Of a stretch of 37,706 bases of DNA, positions 28,816 through 37,639 are shown one piece after another (positions within the stretch are counted from its first letter, which is position 1; every line of letters begins with the position of its first letter). A model generated the notes under the pieces. It did not search any database, was not told where the DNA came from, and saw nothing but the letters and a program-made list of their open reading frames with translations. The DNA is from Bacteroidaceae bacterium (GTDB lineage: Bacteria; Bacteroidota; Bacteroidia; Bacteroidales; Bacteroidaceae), in assembly GCA_024398665.1 (NCBI GenBank), contig JAKSIS010000021.1:1-37706 (forward strand), given 5' to 3'. Both the position numbers and the translations under genes were made by a program.

Positions 28816-31401
28816 TCAGTAGTTCTCGTCAAGCACATAAGGTTCTCCGCCTGATGTGATGCCGGCGGCTGATACGTTGAAATTCTGGGTTATGGAACTG
28901 TTGTAGAATTCAACACTGGCTTCCCCGCTGTTGTCTGTCACTACATTGGGGGCCCAATACAGGGTGCGGCGGTAGTCAACGTCACCTATTATGGGGCCTG
29001 TGGGGTATTCGGGAGCATAGAACTCATAGGGGCGTGAAAAACCCGTCATGGTGGTTGTGCGCTTTGAGAGTTCCATCAGTTCGGCACGCTTTGAGAGTTC
29101 ATGCTCTTCCTTGAGCTGGATGTCCACCATTATGACCCTGTCAAATTCATCGGGAGAACCGACCAGGTTCATTAGAGTGTTGTCCGCATATTCCATGTAC
29201 AGGGGGGCCAGTGACCATGCGTCATGCTTGTAGAGCGGGCGTTCATAGACCATAAGTCCCCTGATATCGGCCAGATCAATCTTTGAAGGATCTTCAAAAA
29301 TGCCGGTATTCCTGAATTTCTTGTTGTCATGAACGTAGAAGAATGGCGTGAAACCGTTGATTGCCTTGATTGTATCCATTTCAAGTTCAAGGTCAAAACC
29401 TTTGTCAATGAGGTATCCTACCACGTCATTGGTGTATTCGCCGCGGTCCAGGGCAAGTTCAACGTCCTTGGTCACATCAAATGCATTGAAACGGAAATAG
29501 TCAATGTACTTGCGCTGTTCGTCAATTTCGACATCGGGCAGCAGGTAGCCGTCATCAATGTTGACTATGGCGGACCAGTCGTCGCCGTCGTCACGGCTGT
29601 TGACCGGAGTGTATACCTTGCCGACTTTGGTGCTCAGCTTGAAGAATTCGGTCTCACCGGGGCGGTAGGCCCTGATGGAGGGCATATAGGAGCGCTCGAA
29701 TATGATTCTGGCGTCAGTCCCTATGAAACGTTCCGGAGCGTGGGCCCTGATTGTCAGTGTGGCCAGGTCATAGAAGTCCGATCCTATGTCGAAACCGAAA
29801 TAACCGGTGGAGTCAGTCACGTAGGAGAATGTCTCTGTAAGGGTCTTGTCAGCGGGAACGACTGAAGCTGACACTTCCACGTTTTCAAGCGGTTTCCTGC
29901 CGGACGGATTCCTGAGCCAGCCGTTCATGGTAAGATTCCTTTCCATGCGGTGCTTTTCCCTGAAACTGTCAAATCCTGCCATCATGCGCCAGTCGTACCG
30001 TTCCCATCCCTGGACCTGACAAAGCAGGTCAAGAGCTATGGCGTGTTCGTCATCGTCCTTTTCAAAATAGTATCCCGGCTTTTCAATGAGTCCCTTCAAG
30101 TCCGATGAAAGCAGCATCGAGGTGCGCAGGTCATCTGCGAACGGGCTGCCCATGCCACGCGAGTCGCGCACGGAAACGCAGAACCGGTCACGCAGAGGGG
30201 CACCGGTGCCGTCAGTCAGATTGAACTTGAGGCTGATCTTTTCAAAACGGCCGTAGTGGTCCTTGTCAGGAGTCACGGTGAGCACAGGGGCCTTTGCCGT
30301 GCGGCTGCGGTGATAGAGCGAACGGCTGGCAATGATATTGCCGGCCAGATTGAACAGTGTCACGCGGCAGACTCCGTCCGGAATGCCTTCCATAGGTATG
30401 TCTTCAGTTGTCAGCTTCTTGCCCAGCTTGACGCTGCGGAATTCATAAACTTCACCGCGGCAGGTAAGCGACAGACCTATTTCCGTGCCGGCAAGGTCTG
30501 CTGACGGACACATGGCAACTGAGATCCTGTCACGGCTGCTTTCACTTACGTGAATGGCACAGCCGCTTTCCTCTGCATCGGGCAGACTGAACTTGCGCGT
30601 GCTTCCACCCACGCTTATTTCAACGCTGTTGCTCCGGCCTGTCGGCGTGAACTGGAATGACCCCATGCCGTCATGGACGGTGCTGAAGGTCTGTCCGTCA
30701 GCGTCCAGCGTGCCGGTTGCGTCAACTCCGAAACCGGTCCCGTCAGTCACTTTGAAGGCAATCTGGCTGGGCTGTCCTATGATGATATGTCCTCCTTCCG
30801 GAAAGAATGAGACGTTTATGCTGTTCAGCTTTTCCGTCTTGGGGCGCTTTTCGTCAAGTCCTGTGACCCTTCTGGTCATGACTGGCGCGGTTTCATAGTA
30901 GTTGCCTTCCTCCTTGGGCTTGTCATAAACCGCAAAAACCCTTGAGAATATAGCTTCCTCGCCGAAATTCTGCATGTATGCCGTGTAGGCCCTGATCTCA
31001 TAGAAACCGCCGGGGTAGGGCAGGACGCCGCGCAGGTCACGTGCCTGTGACGTGGATCCGTCCATGAGCGCAATGGATCCGTCAGCCTGACCGGCAACAA
31101 TTTTCAGTTTCTGCTGTTTCAGAAGCACGCCGTCAGGTGAAATCAGATCAACGTAAAGCACACCGCTCTGAGGCCTGTCCAGCATCGAGGCGTTGACCAC
31201 AAAAGCCTTGAACCATATGGTCTCACCCTGATAATAAGACGTGTTGTCAAACTGGAGATATACTTTTTCCTGAGGGAATTCCGCGTTGAACTTGTGAATG
31301 GTTCCGGTAAGCGACATCAGGCTGTCCCTTACAGATTTGTCTGCCATAACTGTTGCTGTGGGCAGAAATATGGCCAGTATTATGGCAAGAATTTTTTTCA
31401 T
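28816..31401 (-). CDS. Large secreted MG2-type (macroglobulin-like) protein
   Basis: This 861-residue protein has a signal peptide (cleavage after about residue 20, 'ATVMA'). The mature start carries an MG2-like motif, 'EKVYLQFDNTSYYQGETIWFKAF' (about 44-66), as in macroglobulin-type envelope proteins. A carboxypeptidase-regulatory-like beta-sandwich is suggested around 510-560 ('LENVEVSASVVPADKTL'). The segments 'SMLLSSDLKGLIEKPGYYF' and, near the end, 'RRTLYWAPNVVTDNSG' are hallmarks of a common Bacteroidota family of long exported proteins often misnamed TonB-plug or receptor proteins. There is no barrel, thioester motif or protease site. A role at the outer membrane is likely; the function is unknown. 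It is a single-gene unit, 133 bp from rpsA, with its own promoter. Confidence 0.8.
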   Translation of the reverse strand: MKKILAIILAIFLPTATVMADKSVRDSLMSLTGTIHKFNAEFPQEKVYLQFDNTSYYQGETIWFKAFVVNASMLDRPQSGVLYVDLISPDGVLLKQQKLKIVAGQADGSIALMDGSTSQARDLRGVLPYPGGFYEIRAYTAYMQNFGEEAIFSRVFAVYDKPKEEGNYYETAPVMTRRVTGLDEKRPKTEKLNSINVSFFPEGGHIIIGQPSQIAFKVTDGTGFGVDATGTLDADGQTFSTVHDGMGSFQFTPTGRSNSVEISVGGSTRKFSLPDAEESGCAIHVSESSRDRISVAMCPSADLAGTEIGLSLTCRGEVYEFRSVKLGKKLTTEDIPMEGIPDGVCRVTLFNLAGNIIASRSLYHRSRTAKAPVLTVTPDKDHYGRFEKISLKFNLTDGTGAPLRDRFCVSVRDSRGMGSPFADDLRTSMLLSSDLKGLIEKPGYYFEKDDDEHAIALDLLCQVQGWERYDWRMMAGFDSFREKHRMERNLTMNGWLRNPSGRKPLENVEVSASVVPADKTLTETFSYVTDSTGYFGFDIGSDFYDLATLTIRAHAPERFIGTDARIIFERSYMPSIRAYRPGETEFFKLSTKVGKVYTPVNSRDDGDDWSAIVNIDDGYLLPDVEIDEQRKYIDYFRFNAFDVTKDVELALDRGEYTNDVVGYLIDKGFDLELEMDTIKAINGFTPFFYVHDNKKFRNTGIFEDPSKIDLADIRGLMVYERPLYKHDAWSLAPLYMEYADNTLMNLVGSPDEFDRVIMVDIQLKEEHELSKRAELMELSKRTTTMTGFSRPYEFYAPEYPTGPIIGDVDYRRTLYWAPNVVTDNSGEASVEFYNSSITQNFNVSAAGITSGGEPYVLDENY

Positions 31402-31818: not shown

Positions 31819-31977
31819 CTCTTGATTTTGAATAGTGTTTCTATCATATATTGCTTTGGCTCATTTGAGAACCTATAACAATATACGATACATTATGTTG
31901 TGGATAAGACAGCCAACAAACTAAAGTACAATACAATATACTATGATGCCAACATAATTGCATTGCCAACATAAGGC

Positions 31978-32178
31978 AGGAAGAACTACCTGTTCTGCGG
32001 CAATGACGCTTCCGCATACCGTGCCGCAATCGTCTACTCGCTGATAGGTACCTGCAAGGCAGCCGGTGTAGAACCGCGGCAGTGGATGGAAGACGTACTC
32101 CGCCAGATGCCGTATTATGAGCGTGACGGGAAGGATCTGGCCGAACTGCTTCCACAAGCCTGGGCTCTCAAACACTAA
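31978..32178 (+). pseudogene. C-terminal remnant of IS66-family transposase (TnpC)
   Basis: Translation gives 66 residues beginning 'RKNYLFCGNDASAYRAAIVY' and continuing with 'SLIGTCKAAGVEPRQWMEDV' and 'DLAELLPQAWALKH'. This is the characteristic end of IS66-family TnpC transposases ('NYLFCG', 'AAIIYSL.G.CK', 'LLP..W'). An in-frame stop lies just upstream (31972-31974), and none of the catalytic domain (DDE), zinc finger, TnpA or TnpB is present. It is therefore a dead fragment marking past insertion at the boundary of the AT-rich island. The surrounding bases do not show clear IS66 ends. Confidence 0.85.
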
Positions 32179-32314: not shown

Positions 32315-32367
32315 AATAAAAAACCTCCGACGAGATAAAATATATCATCCATCAGAGGTTTTTTATT
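32315..32367. terminator. Long bidirectional terminator
   Basis: Perfect 13-bp arms AATAAAAAACCTC (32315-32327) and GAGGTTTTTTATT (32355-32367) enclose 27 bp with further partial pairing. On the minus strand it lies 65 bp after the end of the AT-rich operon (32432) and would end it; it also works rightward. Confidence 0.8.
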
Positions 32368-32431: not shown

Positions 32432-33370
32432 TCATTTCGAACTATACACTATAGTCCTTTCAGTGATTGTGTTTGGTATTTCCTTTCCATCAACTATTAT
32501 ATTTTTTACCCTTTTTATCCAGTTACCATGTTTATCATACTCGTAATCAGAATACTTGATGATAGAAACACTGTTTTTTTCATCATATTCAGGAGTCTCT
32601 TCATAAATCTCAAATCCATGATCATTATAAATAGTAACACATTTTACTCCATCATCCAGTTTTACGGAACGAGTTATAACTCCTTCTTTGTTAAATTCCT
32701 TAGATAGTTCGATTGTTCCATCATTCCTAATAACATTATAACTGCCATTTGTATCAACAGCTACATAACATTGTTTTGTTGTAAGTGTACGCTGACCAAA
32801 ATTAGATATTGTTATAGCGCTATCAACTTTTTCATCTGACCAATAATATGTTGTAGTTGTGGCGGAATTGTTGAATGGCATTGTGCTCTTTGAAACACTT
32901 TCTGTAAGTTGCCCTATGGAATTGTACTTATAACTTATTAATAATGAAATATCATCGATAGAACTAGGTAATAAAAAATGACTCATAGATATTATATGAC
33001 CAAAATTATCATATTCTATTTTCAAACGATAGCTAAGGGCTGATACCTGTTGTCCCCCATGTTGGCTATATCGAGAAATATCAGATATATATCCATTATC
33101 ATCAGCTTTATAAAGCGTAGTACTTCCAAAAGACTTGTTAACAATGGTGTCCTCAATATAAATACCAGATTCGTAATGCCCAGAAAGAGCTAACAAATAT
33201 TCGTTCTCTTCGCAACTATAAATTTTGTCTTTAAACTCCGCAACGGATGGTAGGATGTTTCTACCTTCGATTTGAGCATATGAACATATGTTAATCGTAA
33301 TTGCTATAAATAGACATAAAAAATAGTTCGGAAAAAGAATAATGTTCTTGAAAGAATACTGCTTCATCAT
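32432..33370 (-). CDS. Secreted YD-repeat (RHS-like) protein
   Basis: This 312-residue protein has a signal peptide (hydrophobic core about 10-30, ending 'NICSYAQ'). The mature protein contains spaced YD/RHS-type repeats: 'IEYDNFGHIISMSHF', 'ISYKYNSIGQLTESVSKS', 'VIRNDGTIELSKEFNKEGVITRSV' and 'YEYDKHGNWIKRVKN'. It is far too short for an RHS toxin cage and has no C-terminal toxin domain, so it resembles small Bacteroidota YD proteins of unknown role. I chose the ATG at 33370 because it yields a clean signal peptide; the frame is open to 33433, overlapping the upstream lipoprotein gene. It is the last gene of an AT-rich operon and is noticeably lower in GC than the core genes. Confidence 0.78.
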   Translation of the reverse strand: MMKQYSFKNIILFPNYFLCLFIAITINICSYAQIEGRNILPSVAEFKDKIYSCEENEYLLALSGHYESGIYIEDTIVNKSFGSTTLYKADDNGYISDISRYSQHGGQQVSALSYRLKIEYDNFGHIISMSHFLLPSSIDDISLLISYKYNSIGQLTESVSKSTMPFNNSATTTTYYWSDEKVDSAITISNFGQRTLTTKQCYVAVDTNGSYNVIRNDGTIELSKEFNKEGVITRSVKLDDGVKCVTIYNDHGFEIYEETPEYDEKNSVSIIKYSDYEYDKHGNWIKRVKNIIVDGKEIPNTITERTIVYSSK

Positions 33371-33395
33371 ATCTAAATTTGTTTTGGGAGCATAA

Positions 33396-34394
33396 TTAAT
33401 GGCTAATAGGATATGGTATTGCGATGTGTACATCGTAAATACAATAAGTTAAATTTCCATTTGAAGGACTGCTTGTGAATGACGATATGTTACTGAATGA
33501 CATGTTATTATAGCTCGAAGTGGACGGACCTGCCCATATAAGTACTCTGAAATTGATGTGACTTGAATAGGGAGCGCAGTTATTTTCCACATCAGCATGT
33601 GTTTTATAGTTATAATTAAAAGTATAATTATCTACCGTTTTATTAATATTGGCATGATCATACTGGAATTGATCTGTATATCTTGTTGGAACGCCATTTT
33701 CTAGATAATAACTTCTTACCCAACTACCTTTCAGTACAACACTTATTTTTCTGCGCGCTAAGACCAATCCATTTCCATCGGTAAATTCTACCTGATCAGG
33801 AAAATATGGATAAATTGTTTCGTCATCAAAATAAAAATCAATTCTTTCTCCTCTTGTCAGCATTGATTTTTTTGCAAATGTATCGTAGTTAGAAATGTTA
33901 GTCAGAAGATTGTCATAAACTAGTTCGCCCGTACTTTTATCAAATGCAGCAATAGTATAAAAAAACAGGATGTTATCACATGACCATTCAAGTTTGATAA
34001 AATCATATTTATACTTTTCTTTTATTACATTATCAACTGCTGTACATATTATATTAGCAGGTACATGGTAATTTGTTGTATCATTTTTCAAAAAATCAAA
34101 CGAAACAGGATTGAATCTGGAATTATGAAGGTGATGATATACTGGGAAGCAATTCTGTCTACTATCAAGGAAAGTGCAACCATCAATATCCATACCATCT
34201 ATTTTTGTTGACTTTACAAATTTTACTCCACTATTTGAAAGAGATAGTGCATTTTTCGCAAGCTCCATAGATAAAGATTGGCTCCAATCATAATAATTAT
34301 CTTCAATGAAAAAATCATCATTTGTGCAACTTGTAAACATAATGGCAGATAATAAGCTAGCCATTGCAATAATTTTTTTTGTCTTTTTGTTCAT
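33396..34394 (-). CDS. Lipoprotein of unknown function
   Basis: This 332-residue protein begins with a lipoprotein signal and lipobox 'MFTSC' (Cys about 23). The next residues, Thr-Asn-Asp-Asp, are acidic at +3/+4, reminiscent of Bacteroidota lipoprotein surface-export signals, so it may face outward. The body is rich in Asn, Tyr, Asp and Ser, with a beta-rich look and no recognised domain or catalytic motif. It lies 25 bp downstream of an O-antigen-ligase-type gene and 25 bp upstream of the YD-repeat gene, in one operon. It may be a substrate or partner of the ligase-like proteins; that is inference. Base composition is markedly AT-rich compared with the core. Confidence 0.78.
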   Translation of the reverse strand: MNKKTKKIIAMASLLSAIMFTSCTNDDFFIEDNYYDWSQSLSMELAKNALSLSNSGVKFVKSTKIDGMDIDGCTFLDSRQNCFPVYHHLHNSRFNPVSFDFLKNDTTNYHVPANIICTAVDNVIKEKYKYDFIKLEWSCDNILFFYTIAAFDKSTGELVYDNLLTNISNYDTFAKKSMLTRGERIDFYFDDETIYPYFPDQVEFTDGNGLVLARRKISVVLKGSWVRSYYLENGVPTRYTDQFQYDHANINKTVDNYTFNYNYKTHADVENNCAPYSSHINFRVLIWAGPSTSSYNNMSFSNISSFTSSPSNGNLTYCIYDVHIAIPYPISH

Positions 34395-34419
34395 AATAAG
34401 ATGTTTATAAAATTAATGG

Positions 34420-36018
34420 TTACATTTTTATTAATGTCTGTTTTACATTACTCCTAATAGTCCGGATCTCATTAGAGTTGATTTTAACTGGTTTTGATAG
34501 GATTGTCTGGCCTATCTCAAGCATATCATCTGTGCGATCCAATTCTTTGTACAAGCAGAATAAACCGTATAATGGCATGAATCTTACAGGACACATCTTT
34601 GAAGCAACCCAGTAAAATTCCTCTGCCATATCCACATCACCACATTCTTTTGCATTATCGGCAATCAACAATGCAGTGTCGTAGTTCGCCATCAAGCCAA
34701 AGCTGTCTATTGCCATATCTCCAGCTTTTTTACAGTCTCCATTTTCTGATAGAACGTATGCATAGTTGTATAGGAAATAGGGGTCATTCTTTAGCTTCGG
34801 ATATAAAATGTCGTAACCTTCAAGAACAGCCTTTGTTTCATTGCCATTATCTGAAACAACTGATAATTTTTTCCATTGAATCTGATAGTGTGCCCAGATA
34901 ATTATAAGACATAAAAATAAAGATGATATAGTCGCTGTTGTGCTTCTTATTATTATCATAGTTGTCCGGCTTAAATTCAAAAGCACATCCTTATACACCA
35001 ATAGCAATGCGCATAATAACCCCAACAGTGTTAAAGGATAGCGAAATGGATATGAAAACATAGACAAAACGCCTATTCCTGCTATTGTCATAATACCAAC
35101 AAATGACTCATTGCTTTGATTCTTGAAGTAATGCATGATAGTCATTATGATTCCAATCAGTAACGTAGCAATGCCTATCACTCCAAAATTCACGGCCAGT
35201 AGAGCATATTCGTTTAGAGGGTGTGTGGTGTTGTCAGCAAGCATCGGCAACACACTGCTCCCGCAATGCTCCAGATAATCCGCCTGATAAAGCATATACT
35301 GGCTACGGAATCCGTGTAGTCCATGCCCAAACAACGGAGCGTCCTTAAACATATCCCAACACACGCCCAATATTAATGCTCTACCACTGTTGGAGCCTCT
35401 CTTAGAGAAAGACATATATACAACAACTGCTAACAAGATTAGAGACAATAAAGCTGCCATTATCTTCCTTGTCTTTACATCCTTCAGTGTATGTAGAACA
35501 TATAACAGCAAGACAATGCCTGATGCCAGTATTCCCACGCGTGAGCGGGCAATGACCAATATTGTCAAGACAACGCCACATGTTCCTGATAAAGCCACAT
35601 TCTTTATAACACGATCTTTTACTTTATCTATAAGAGCCAGAGTGAAAGGGAGTGATACTGTAAGTGATGCAGCCACACCAGCCGGGTTGTCGAATCCGGC
35701 TAAAACGCGATAGCCATTAACGGTATTGACGTGTATGACGCCTGTTATTTGTAACAATGAGTGTATTGATACAATAATGCTGGCTATTAGAAAAGGGATT
35801 GCAATTATATCAAAACCACATTCCTCATAAGTACTTGTCATTGCTATAAATAGGGTTGTAATACAAAGTGATACACCCAACCCAATCCATTTTCCAATGA
35901 TCTGGCCATCACAAAAAAGGTTATTGTAAGAAATAACTCCTACTGTTGCTGTTATTACCAGCAGCAACAGTACGACATGATAGAGTTGTTTATTTCGTTT
36001 TAACAGATTAGATTTCAT
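34420..36018 (-). CDS. O-antigen ligase-like membrane protein with TPR-like tail (copy 2)
   Basis: This 532-residue multi-pass membrane protein has about 10-12 hydrophobic segments up to about residue 365. The Wzy_C/WaaL-type core shows 'DNPAGVAASL' (about 110), 'RSRVGILASG' (about 158-167), 'FGHGLHGF' (about 230) and a large periplasmic loop ending 'MLADNTTHPLNEY' (His about 266). This family transfers or polymerises lipid-linked glycans in the periplasm (O-antigen ligase, polymerase, or protein O-oligosaccharyltransferase). The soluble C-terminal 150 residues look like TPR helices ('DPYFLYNYAYVLSENGDCKKAGD'). I chose the ATG at 36018, overlapping the upstream stop by 11 bp; 36039 is possible. 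It is a tandem paralogue of the next gene. Confidence 0.85.
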   Translation of the reverse strand: MKSNLLKRNKQLYHVVLLLLVITATVGVISYNNLFCDGQIIGKWIGLGVSLCITTLFIAMTSTYEECGFDIIAIPFLIASIIVSIHSLLQITGVIHVNTVNGYRVLAGFDNPAGVAASLTVSLPFTLALIDKVKDRVIKNVALSGTCGVVLTILVIARSRVGILASGIVLLLYVLHTLKDVKTRKIMAALLSLILLAVVVYMSFSKRGSNSGRALILGVCWDMFKDAPLFGHGLHGFRSQYMLYQADYLEHCGSSVLPMLADNTTHPLNEYALLAVNFGVIGIATLLIGIIMTIMHYFKNQSNESFVGIMTIAGIGVLSMFSYPFRYPLTLLGLLCALLLVYKDVLLNLSRTTMIIIRSTTATISSLFLCLIIIWAHYQIQWKKLSVVSDNGNETKAVLEGYDILYPKLKNDPYFLYNYAYVLSENGDCKKAGDMAIDSFGLMANYDTALLIADNAKECGDVDMAEEFYWVASKMCPVRFMPLYGLFCLYKELDRTDDMLEIGQTILSKPVKINSNEIRTIRSNVKQTLIKM

Positions 36019-37639
36019 ATTCTTTTTCAGTTTTGTCATTCGTTTGATATGACATTGCTGTATCTATAACTATACGAGCGGCTTTAATTATTTCTTGAAC
36101 CCTAATAGAATTTACTTTTATTGGTTTTGAAATAATGGTCTGAGCTAATCTCATGGCAGATAGTGTATCTCTGTTGTTCAAGGACAGCGTCATCATACTC
36201 TCCAACGGCTCAAACCTGCAAGGTATCATATCCAACGCATGTTGATATGAAACAATGGCCTGATTTATCTGCCCTGTATTCTCCAGGTTGTCCGCCAATA
36301 ACATCTGCACATCATAATCATTCCATCCCTCACGGCATTCCTCTGTTACGGCCAGGCTCTCTTCATACCTACCTATATAGTTGAGTTCCGCTGCATAATT
36401 GTAAAGAAACAGTGGGTTATGCTGCATCTTTGGTTTCATCTTCTCATAGTATGGCAACATACGGTCTGTGTACCCGGCAAGCGAACGCTTGGACATTTCA
36501 GCCCATTTGAGATCCAGATACATCATACGTAGCACTATTACAAGCAAAAGAGATAACATTATTGGCAATGAGACACGCAGATAATTTGGGGTAATCCACT
36601 CCTTGTTATCATCACTCTCCCTAAAGAAAGCTGGGATGATGGCTATTGCAGATATAAACCATACTGCCGCATAGTGGAATGGATAAGAGAACTGGCACAT
36701 AACAAACACTGACGCTGTTACAGCCAGTCCTATCACTTTGATATTCTCTCTGGACTTAAACAGGCGCTTTACCGTTAAGGCAAGTACAATGAATGCCATT
36801 GCAAGCCCAACCAGCCCATAGTTAACAGTAAGCTTTATGTATTCGTTGAACGGGTGTGTCACGTTATCAGCCAGCATAACATACAGAGAATCCGGATGCA
36901 CACTGAAATATGCAGCCTGAGCATCCATATAGTGTTTTTCTATTCCTCCTATACCATATCCAAACAAAGGACGTTCCTTTATCATATCCCAGCATATAGA
37001 CCAGACAAACAGACGACCATTAGCAGAACTTGCTTTAATGCGGTAAAGCAAAATGGATGATATTACTGCAACAAAAATCAGAATTATCCATAACCATTTA
37101 TGTGTCTTTAATATTGACAGAACTTTTGTCTTGAAAGCAAGCACAACTGCTGCCGCAGCACATATCGCCAATAGCCCTGCTCTTGAGCCAGAAAGTGTGA
37201 TTGTCAGTGCGCAAGCAACTGCTGTCAATCCGGCAAACCAGCGGATCAGACGGTTTCGTTCCTTATCCAAGCATAGTACTAATGCAAATGGAAATAAAGC
37301 CGCCTGAACTGCGGAAAATCCCGCCGGATTCTCGTAAGTTCCGGTTATTGGGAAAGCATAGTGTCTGGAAGGGATAGCACCAAAATACTGCAAAAGACCG
37401 TAAACGGATAGCATTAGGCATACGGAAGTAAAACCGGCACTTATACAAGATGAACAAAGTGACTCTTTCAACCTATACAAACCTTTGCGTGGCACAGAAC
37501 AGGCTAACATCAAAAGGATTACAGCAATTCCTATGAAATAAGCCATCGCATCATTTTCTACATTCATGAAGTGTTCGGAGGTGATGAATACTCCACCGAA
37601 TAGTATTATGGTATACAATGATGTAAATAACATATTCAT
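36008..37639 (-). CDS. O-antigen ligase-like membrane protein with TPR-like tail (copy 1)
   Basis: This 543-residue paralogue of the preceding entry has the same architecture: about 10-12 membrane helices, 'ENPAGFSAVQ' (103-112), 'SGSRAGLLAI' (150-159), 'FGYGIGGIEKHY' (226-237), and the loop 'VMLADNVTHPFNEYIKL' with His262. The Wzy_C region is followed by a C-terminal TPR-like part (about 400-543; 'NPLFLYNYAAELNYIGRYEESLAV'). Both copies end similarly ('ISKP(I/V)K(V/I)NS'), so they arose by duplication, though the sequences have diverged widely. No glycosyltransferase, flippase (Wzx) or sugar-nucleotide genes are near, which argues against a normal O-antigen locus. Only 67 bp lie between its start and the window edge, so the operon may begin with further genes outside. 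Confidence 0.85.
   Translation of the reverse strand: MNMLFTSLYTIILFGGVFITSEHFMNVENDAMAYFIGIAVILLMLACSVPRKGLYRLKESLCSSCISAGFTSVCLMLSVYGLLQYFGAIPSRHYAFPITGTYENPAGFSAVQAALFPFALVLCLDKERNRLIRWFAGLTAVACALTITLSGSRAGLLAICAAAAVVLAFKTKVLSILKTHKWLWIILIFVAVISSILLYRIKASSANGRLFVWSICWDMIKERPLFGYGIGGIEKHYMDAQAAYFSVHPDSLYVMLADNVTHPFNEYIKLTVNYGLVGLAMAFIVLALTVKRLFKSRENIKVIGLAVTASVFVMCQFSYPFHYAAVWFISAIAIIPAFFRESDDNKEWITPNYLRVSLPIMLSLLLVIVLRMMYLDLKWAEMSKRSLAGYTDRMLPYYEKMKPKMQHNPLFLYNYAAELNYIGRYEESLAVTEECREGWNDYDVQMLLADNLENTGQINQAIVSYQHALDMIPCRFEPLESMMTLSLNNRDTLSAMRLAQTIISKPIKVNSIRVQEIIKAARIVIDTAMSYQTNDKTEKEYEI

Follow-up and report, generated by a model that had tools for sequence, protein, structure and literature searches.

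The operon and its boundaries

The window analysed here, 37,706 nucleotides long, corresponds to contig C14 in the 2.24 Mb draft genome (84% complete, 90 contigs) of a gut bacterium from an uncultured Bacteroidales genus. Four leftward genes had been reported near its right end by a first-pass annotation, and open reading frames are present for all four. These genes and the adjoining features are listed below.

36008..37639, minus strand: ligA, a 543-aa Wzy_C membrane protein with a TPR tail (ORF list, Pfam)
34420..36039 (likely start 36018), minus strand: ligB, a 539-aa Wzy_C membrane protein with a TPR tail (ORF list, Pfam)
33396..34394, minus strand: LIPO, a 332-aa lipoprotein with C-TNDDF after the lipobox (ORF list, LIPO profile)
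32432..33433 (likely start near 33370), minus strand: secreted YD-motif protein (operon member by position)
32315..32367, minus strand: intrinsic-terminator hairpin that closes the operon (-28.4 kcal/mol, z -6.6)
31975..32178, plus strand: IS66 transposase remnant, C-terminal element, outside the operon (PF13817, 5.7e-12)

The 25-bp gap between ligB and LIPO is found in the open reading frames as listed. Internal Met starts (36018 for ligB, 33370 for the YD gene) reproduce the reported 11-bp overlap of the ligases and 25-bp gap upstream of the YD gene; the longest-ORF starts give overlaps of 32 and 38 bp at these places. The operon is indeed AT-rich, with 31.5–41.1% GC versus 51.4% for bases 1–31400. 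Such low GC is usual for the ligase family, as five of the six other ligases of the genome lie at 33–44% GC.

IS66 debris had been taken as the boundary of the operon. This is so on the left (31975–32178), whereas on the right the contig stops 67 bp beyond ligA. The 3′ end is marked by the hairpin at 32315–32367, the stability of which was reached by none of 200 shuffles. A consensus terminator scan missed this hairpin because its loop exceeds the limit of the scan. A promoter scan returned 25 candidates where 25.0 were expected, and a search for defence genes with PADLOC gave no match for the eight proteins examined. We considered the MG2 gene at 28816–31401 as an operon member and rejected it, since the MG2 family is abundant, with 13 members matched here and at least one in each of the 37 genus genomes, and since it is separated from the operon by the terminator and the IS66 remnant. 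The presence of MG2 genes beside other ligases may likewise reflect mere abundance.

A multi-copy Wzy_C/TPR family

Both membrane proteins fall within the Wzy_C superfamily, as had been claimed: PF04932, with a curated cut-off of 31.7 bits, is passed by ligA (69.4 bits, 3.9e-19) and ligB (56.3 bits, 4.2e-15). At 30% identity the two are a paralogous pair, again in agreement with the first-pass annotation. Their TPR-like tails are supported in part, in that TPR matches are present in both tails, with scores below the cut-off. Against NCBIfam TIGR04370 (oligosaccharide repeat unit polymerase), ligA scores 39.2 bits, the cut-off being 40. Neither protein matches PglL_A (PF15864) or Wzy_C_2 (PF11846) at E up to 1; we take a Wzy_C_2 match to be one criterion of a PglL.

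The genome has eight PF04932 genes, two on C14, two on C28 and one each on C10, C4, C1 and C49. Their products are 518–620 aa long and alike over most of their length. The profile matches 39 of 61 genomes, including 36 of 37 of the genus, and 26 of 295 genomes of the order at 1e-20 (own genome counted, at most four candidates per genome scored). The first set comprised 84 matches, 69 of them with at least 480 aa and 67 of these distinct; with the order-level loci added, there are 88 ligases of at least 470 aa, 86 of them distinct. Nine loci were joined to the main locus set. In that set, L034 and L038 duplicate L049 and L058, and the near-identical L056 and L057 were retained.

The first-pass annotation saw no glycosyltransferase nearby. 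Genome-wide, none of the 24 matches to PF00535 or PF00534 (GT2/GT4) lies on the six ligase contigs. Taken alone this absence is weak, because these contigs make up 12.6% of the genome and only about three of the 24 matches would be expected on them by length. The flippase domain PF14667 had no match in the genome, the control search having detected it in just 6 of 14; the search for sugar-assembly genes covered these three models. Nor did homologues turn up mainly in O-antigen or capsule loci devoid of a lipoprotein link, the outcome named beforehand as speaking against a dedicated-client role; the lipoprotein link recurs. Overall, the operon seems unlike an O-antigen locus.

The lipoprotein partner

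LIPO carries the features of an LES-type signal, with polar and then acidic residues after the lipobox Cys (C-TNDDF). The acidic pair is not at +3/+4 as previously noted, rather at +4/+5 counting Cys as +1 (C-T-N-D-D). The lipobox Cys is present in 20 of 20 LIPO relatives. In the part of the source available (PMC5080379), the consensus for surface export is given as SDDDD/SDDFE. The start of LIPO is thus export-signal-like, and a surface location is predicted. When LIPO was searched against PDB sequences, no credible match emerged (best E 0.25).

Six LIPO genes are detected by profile in this genome (one on C14, three on C1, two on C4), and each has a ligase no more than 6 kb away. Among congeners, 11 of 16 LIPO genes have a ligase within 6 kb, against a chance expectation of about 1.1%; the binomial p for this proximity, 1.7e-18, takes no account of shared descent and includes the near-identical loci of genomes G021 and G022 twice. 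The pairing thus recurs in the genome and its congeners, as the proposal of a conserved lipoprotein link had anticipated. The five congener LIPO genes without a ligase sit among genes of the same cassette type. Four of these loci (L106, L108, L109 and L110) are cut by a nearby contig end; the fifth, L107, has no contig end close by and no ligase.

LIPO is found in 13 of 37 genus genomes, versus 36 of 37 for the ligases. It is nearly confined to the genus, with weak matches in 2 of 294 other genomes of the order. One of these two, G244, has in addition a protein directly before a ligase (locus L113) that is 31% identical to LIPO by BLAST (1.8e-06) and is not reached by the LIPO profile at 1e-3. 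The family is thus nearly limited to the genus and to cassettes of the kind found in the window.

We also looked at the D-S/T-x sequon of Bacteroidota O-glycosylation. At one LIPO column it is present in 9 of 20 members, including D105-T-T of the window protein, which has one sequon in all versus 1.4 expected. The LIPO family as a whole holds 54 sequons versus 23.8 expected; because homologues are not independent, these totals are no proof of a client role. With one representative per cluster, six cassette lipoproteins have 11 sequons versus 6.9 expected (reverse motif, 10), and 29 other lipoproteins have 48 versus 35.3 (reverse motif, 41). The FIS (Fn3/Lcl_C-like lipoprotein) and peptide families are poor in the sequon, at 0.3 of expected. 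Overall this evidence is weak, and sequon enrichment as proof of a client role was set aside.

The YD-motif protein fares differently. Its YD motifs are visible by eye only, and the earlier YD-repeat label finds no RHS/YD model in Pfam or NCBIfam at E up to 1. One close relative exists among the 37 genomes (48% identity, in G023), and no ligase is found within the 9 kb examined of its 19-kb contig. This does not sustain the idea of a conserved client. The earlier interpretation as a whole is supported in part: the lipoprotein link recurs, an O-antigen setting seems unlikely, and the YD half fails.

Two kinds of cassette

We compared gene order across six stretches of this genome, 62 others with a ligase match (one of which, L078, is from another family), five with LIPO only and, among the matches listed, 19 from other genera. 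Cassettes like that of the window contain varying sets of a DUF3244-like small protein, a transglutaminase-like lipoprotein, LIPO, FIS, a ligase and sometimes an MG2-like protein. Of these labels, DUF3244 narrowly passes its cut-off, and transglutaminase, F5/8 C, Lcl_C and MG2 stay below theirs. Among the ligase entries around the genus, 37 of 73 have a transglutaminase-like gene no more than 5 kb away, as do 11 of 19 from other genera. Locus L046 has, in a row, a ligB-type ligase, LIPO (directly after it, with a 26-bp gap), another gene, a ligA-type ligase and a C21-family lipoprotein gene. For the window ligA, a C21 gene would lie beyond the contig end if present, or would have been lost. 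Two ligases, on C28 and C10, adjoin clostripain-family lipoproteins (72% identity; PF03415 for the one tested).

In the second kind of cassette, a small peptide, a 6-bladed propeller (PF17170), a CxxC-like lipoprotein of about 190 aa, a ligase and signal peptidase I (PF10502, 5.4e-23) occur together, often with DUF1573. The CxxC-like motif was seen by eye, and the one such lipoprotein tested has no Pfam match. In the genus-centred set, all 26 signal peptidase I genes lie directly after a ligase, in loci chosen for holding a ligase, and 20 of the 26 overlap it by longest-ORF starts. NVEALA-like motifs are found in 22 small ORFs of peptide-type loci, by a loose pattern used without a background control, and PF14055 (NVEALA) is matched by two of three peptides tested. 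The earlier remark that similar ligase-TPR genes stand beside small secreted peptides holds for other members of the family, those at NVEALA-type loci. For the laboratory strain of Bacteroides thetaiotaomicron, a transcriptome table in the available part of PMC10434189 annotates BT0662 as O-antigen ligase family and BT0664 as a 6-bladed beta-propeller. Titles and abstracts of the limited collection searched contained nothing on NVEALA or on a module of this kind.

Conserved residues and topology

R209 is present in 86 of 86 ligases and R153 in 85 of 86, while S205, G227 and Y319 are invariant. A profile of the membrane part finds a single PDB chain at E up to 1, namely 9rmk, 'Oligosaccharyltransferase' (8e-08). 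A second profile, from the His-bearing group of ligases, finds 9rmk at 0.01 (18.2 bits) and 7tpg, which we take to be WaaL of Cupriavidus, at 0.081. By residue count, the PglL residues of Schulz 2013 occur at the same numbers in 9rmk; the numbering is that given in the available part of the paper (PMC3643930). On this basis ligase R153 aligns with PglL R224 and R209 with PglL R298, so that both characteristic arginines are accounted for. PglL G316, G318 and P406 are matched by G227, G229 and P320. PglL H400 and E404 are unmatched, ligA having M314 and S318 there, and PglL Q178/N180 are placed at N104 or no more than two residues from it, where the alignment lacks significance.

The catalytic His, which immediately precedes an Asn (PglL H349, E. 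coli WaaL H338), corresponds to column 264, where 85 of 86 ligases, including those of the window, have Phe, Leu or Tyr. These ligases are therefore not filed as WaaL or PglL, though they may work like them. We tried H262 as the canonical catalytic His and rejected it, as residue-by-residue alignment puts it two columns off. Against 9rmk and 7tpg alike, H262 of ligA instead lines up with the first His of H-x-H-N (PglL H347), the stretches aligned to 7tpg not being significant alone. In 27 ligases H262 is kept, each time followed by P263. To judge from this pattern, the neighbouring His could serve in the His-bearing group; it is absent elsewhere.

The Lys/Arg count alternates from loop to loop (1.2, 3.9, 1.1, 3.0, then 4.1, 7.6, 2.7, 0.4, 3.4), and the value of 7.6 belongs to the long R209/H262 loop, over 79 residues. 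Under the positive-inside rule, we infer that the long R209/H262 loop, the F-S-Y-P loop and, one helix later, the TPR tail would be periplasmic.

Partner type and ligase phylogeny

A tree of the 86 distinct ligases was built by quick search, with SH-aLRT support only and a midpoint root. H262 is present in 27 ligases, all in one group of 31 (support 90) that also holds two Asn and two Gln rows; a side of 49 rows is without His. A ligase with H262 (L030) is also present in a cultured relative, Rikenella microfusus DSM 15922. We scored a neighbour as peptide-type if it was a signal peptidase, propeller, CxxC lipoprotein or peptide. Such neighbours are lacking for 26 of the 27 His-bearing ligases, the exception being L054. 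Among the 59 ligases without His262, 40 have peptide-type neighbours and 19 do not. The window ligB belongs to a clade of 14 (support 100) whose rows all have LIPO, FIS or MG2 as a neighbour, and ligA groups with L046 and L047 (support 99), both of which are beside a C21-family lipoprotein. Judged by this tree, the partner type of a ligase follows its clade.

H262 changes four times on the tree, the deepest fork of which is weak (74). Repeated co-evolution of H262 and neighbour type was tried as an explanation and set aside, the independent-pairs test having no power with four changes. A near-single split of this kind points to divergence rather than to repeated co-evolution.

Discussion

Our favoured interpretation, which we advance tentatively, is that ligA and ligB are inner-membrane Wzy_C glycan transferases with a periplasmic TPR domain, dedicated to cognate exported partners. 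A lipid-linked glycan would be made in the cytoplasm, flipped by shared machinery and bound at the periplasmic face by R153 and R209. With the partner protein docked on the TPR domain, the glycan would be passed to it before its move to the outer membrane. The partner may be LIPO for ligB and, where present, a C21-type lipoprotein for ligA. The superfamily, the conserved arginines, the recurrent pairing and the tree are read directly from the sequences; the topology (from the positive-inside pattern), the client role, glycan transfer and a part for H262 in place of the WaaL/PglL His are our inference. We counted in favour of a transferase the Wzy_C scores above cut-off, the kept arginines, the 9rmk match, the LIPO pairing, the match of clade and partner and the lack of GT2/GT4, as well as, by precedent, PglL genes next to pilin targets. 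We counted against it the lost His column, L107 without a ligase, LIPO in 13 versus ligases in 36 of 37 genomes, the lack of PglL_A or Wzy_C_2 matches, 1 versus 1.4 sequons in the window LIPO and the neighbours of L054.

Nearly as likely as a transferase is a non-catalytic scaffold or export chaperone on the Wzy_C fold, whose TPR part would collect the cassette products and hand them on for processing or surface delivery. Such a protein would suit a family in which 85 of 86 members have no His in the canonical column and 59 of 86 lack H262, while the pairing with cargo persists. The position of all 26 signal peptidase I genes directly after a ligase fits too, the loci having been chosen for the ligase. 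However, the invariance of R209, S205, G227 and Y319, with R153 in 85 of 86, suggests a kept site, and 27 ligases retain H262 together with P263. An ordinary O-antigen or polysaccharide ligase or polymerase, apart from its sugar genes and with the lipoprotein a chance neighbour, would account for the Wzy_C score and for the TIGR04370 score just under cut-off; with eight copies in one genome, recurrent lipoprotein neighbours, none of 24 GT2/GT4 matches on ligase contigs and the canonical His column lost, we consider this unlikely.

We think it more improbable still that the ligases add the species-specific outer glycan in general Bacteroidota O-glycosylation, with LIPO as one of many substrates. 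A role of this kind is vacant, the core flippase, OTase and ligase being called undiscovered in the available part of a review (PMC12871550), and the sequon stands at one LIPO column in 9 of 20 members. Yet a family in just 26 of 295 order genomes is too patchy for a phylum-wide role, and as many as eight copies occur in a genome, every one with neighbours of its own. We give similarly little credence to a decaying or newly arrived AT-rich island, in which the operon would be a reduced cassette copy without present function. The low GC, the IS66 remnant, the YD gene that is not conserved and the absence of transglutaminase-like, FIS and DUF3244 genes from the sequenced part of the operon would all agree with decay. 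On the other hand, all four frames are open, the order of ligB-type ligase and LIPO recurs in L046, AT-richness is usual for the family, and the missing genes may sit past the contig end.

How a dedicated transferase would relate to known systems can be seen by comparison. Like the PglL-type OTases of Neisseria and kin, the window ligases have a Wzy_C core and two arginines and lie outside LPS loci; PglL genes, too, often adjoin a target gene (pilin targets in 21 of 31 cases, in the available part of PMC3643930). Unlike PglL, the window ligases have Phe, Leu or Tyr at the His column, differ at the H400 and E404 columns, lack a PglL_A/Wzy_C_2 match, and have a TPR tail and lipoproteins rather than pilins as partners. 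With WaaL they share the Wzy_C core and arginines, and the match to 7tpg is weak (0.081). The window family differs from WaaL in having lost the second His of H-x-H-N, in its multiple copies and TPR tail, and in having no GT2/GT4 on ligase contigs. General O-glycosylation at D-S/T-x likewise has exported and lipoprotein clients, in the same phylum, and an unidentified periplasmic transferase; that system is general, whereas the ligase family is multi-copy, patchy and cassette-linked. At the NVEALA loci (PF14055) of Bacteroidales the same ligase family adjoins peptides, but those ligases lack H262 and are accompanied by signal peptidase I, propeller and CxxC lipoproteins, all three of which are missing from the window operon.

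The cassette matters because the 2025 review cited above (PMC12871550) calls the OTase and outer-glycan ligase of Bacteroidota O-glycosylation undiscovered. Earlier papers, in the parts available, also describe the Bacteroidota OTase as unknown (PMC8729774, PMC6120980). In a P. gingivalis waaL mutant, the glycoprotein Mfa2 was unchanged (available part of PMC8729774), so that a classical WaaL is not the answer in that organism. Ligase/lipoprotein cassettes are therefore a place to search for enzymes that attach sugars to Bacteroidota proteins. Since an operon of a Wzy_C/TPR protein and an exported partner recurs, the transferase question is testable pair by pair.

Finally, other ligases of the family tie NVEALA peptides to a private signal peptidase, and the shifted histidine and the peptide-linked members are both worth a bench test. 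A broader and more doubtful proposal is that this is a split Bacteroidales Wzy_C/TPR family, each member tied to its own exported cargo. One group would glycosylate surface lipoproteins by means of the shifted His. The others, having lost the His, would form the core of peptide maturation with a dedicated signal peptidase I (possibly cutting at NVEALA) and with CxxC and transglutaminase-like lipoproteins. If true, such a split family would make up a novel type of cargo-specific modification system in the periplasm.

Genes adjoining the operon and other ligase loci

The YD protein, the secreted YD-motif member of the operon, has only one close relative in 37 genomes (48%; genome G023, L131:339-1301). 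MazG-like, helicase-like and valS-like genes lie near it, and no ligase gene was found within the 9 kb fetched around it. Left of the operon, the window carries:

28816-31401, MG2-like protein, 861 aa
32183-32258, short array of 3.5 tandem copies of CAACTTGGTACAACTTGTAGC, with the IS66 remnant to its left and the terminator to its right

The MG2-like family is present in 37/37 genus genomes and has 13 matches in the genome under study, the window protein being one of these; a paralogue (L012:6848-9610, contig C1) directly precedes a ligase gene.

Several lipoproteins or exported proteins adjoin ligases:

L009:4073-5278, clostripain-family (C11) lipoprotein, directly upstream of ligase
L010:1707-2894, clostripain-family (C11) lipoprotein, directly upstream of ligase
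L009:5885-6535, L060:1794-2501 and L046:8099-8902, other lipoproteins or exported proteins

The two clostripain-family proteins share 72% identity, and the ligases downstream of them carry Asn at the alignment column of H262. The other three, which had no Pfam match at 0.1, resemble JAMM-type and cysteine-peptidase-type folds when their motifs are judged by eye.

Upstream of ten peptide-type ligase loci (L080, L085-L087, L090, L094, L095, L097, L098, L103), on the opposite strand, lies a gene for a flippase-like membrane protein (~500-540 aa; named by eye), in several cases adjoined by greA-like and HIT-like genes. Its position possibly reflects a mere stable insertion site.

In 26 loci among L062-L111, the ligase gene is followed directly by a signal peptidase I gene (for example, L079:6498-7331), in many cases with NVEALA-type peptides close to the pair. 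The end of the NVEALA motif, we infer, resembles a signal-peptidase site.
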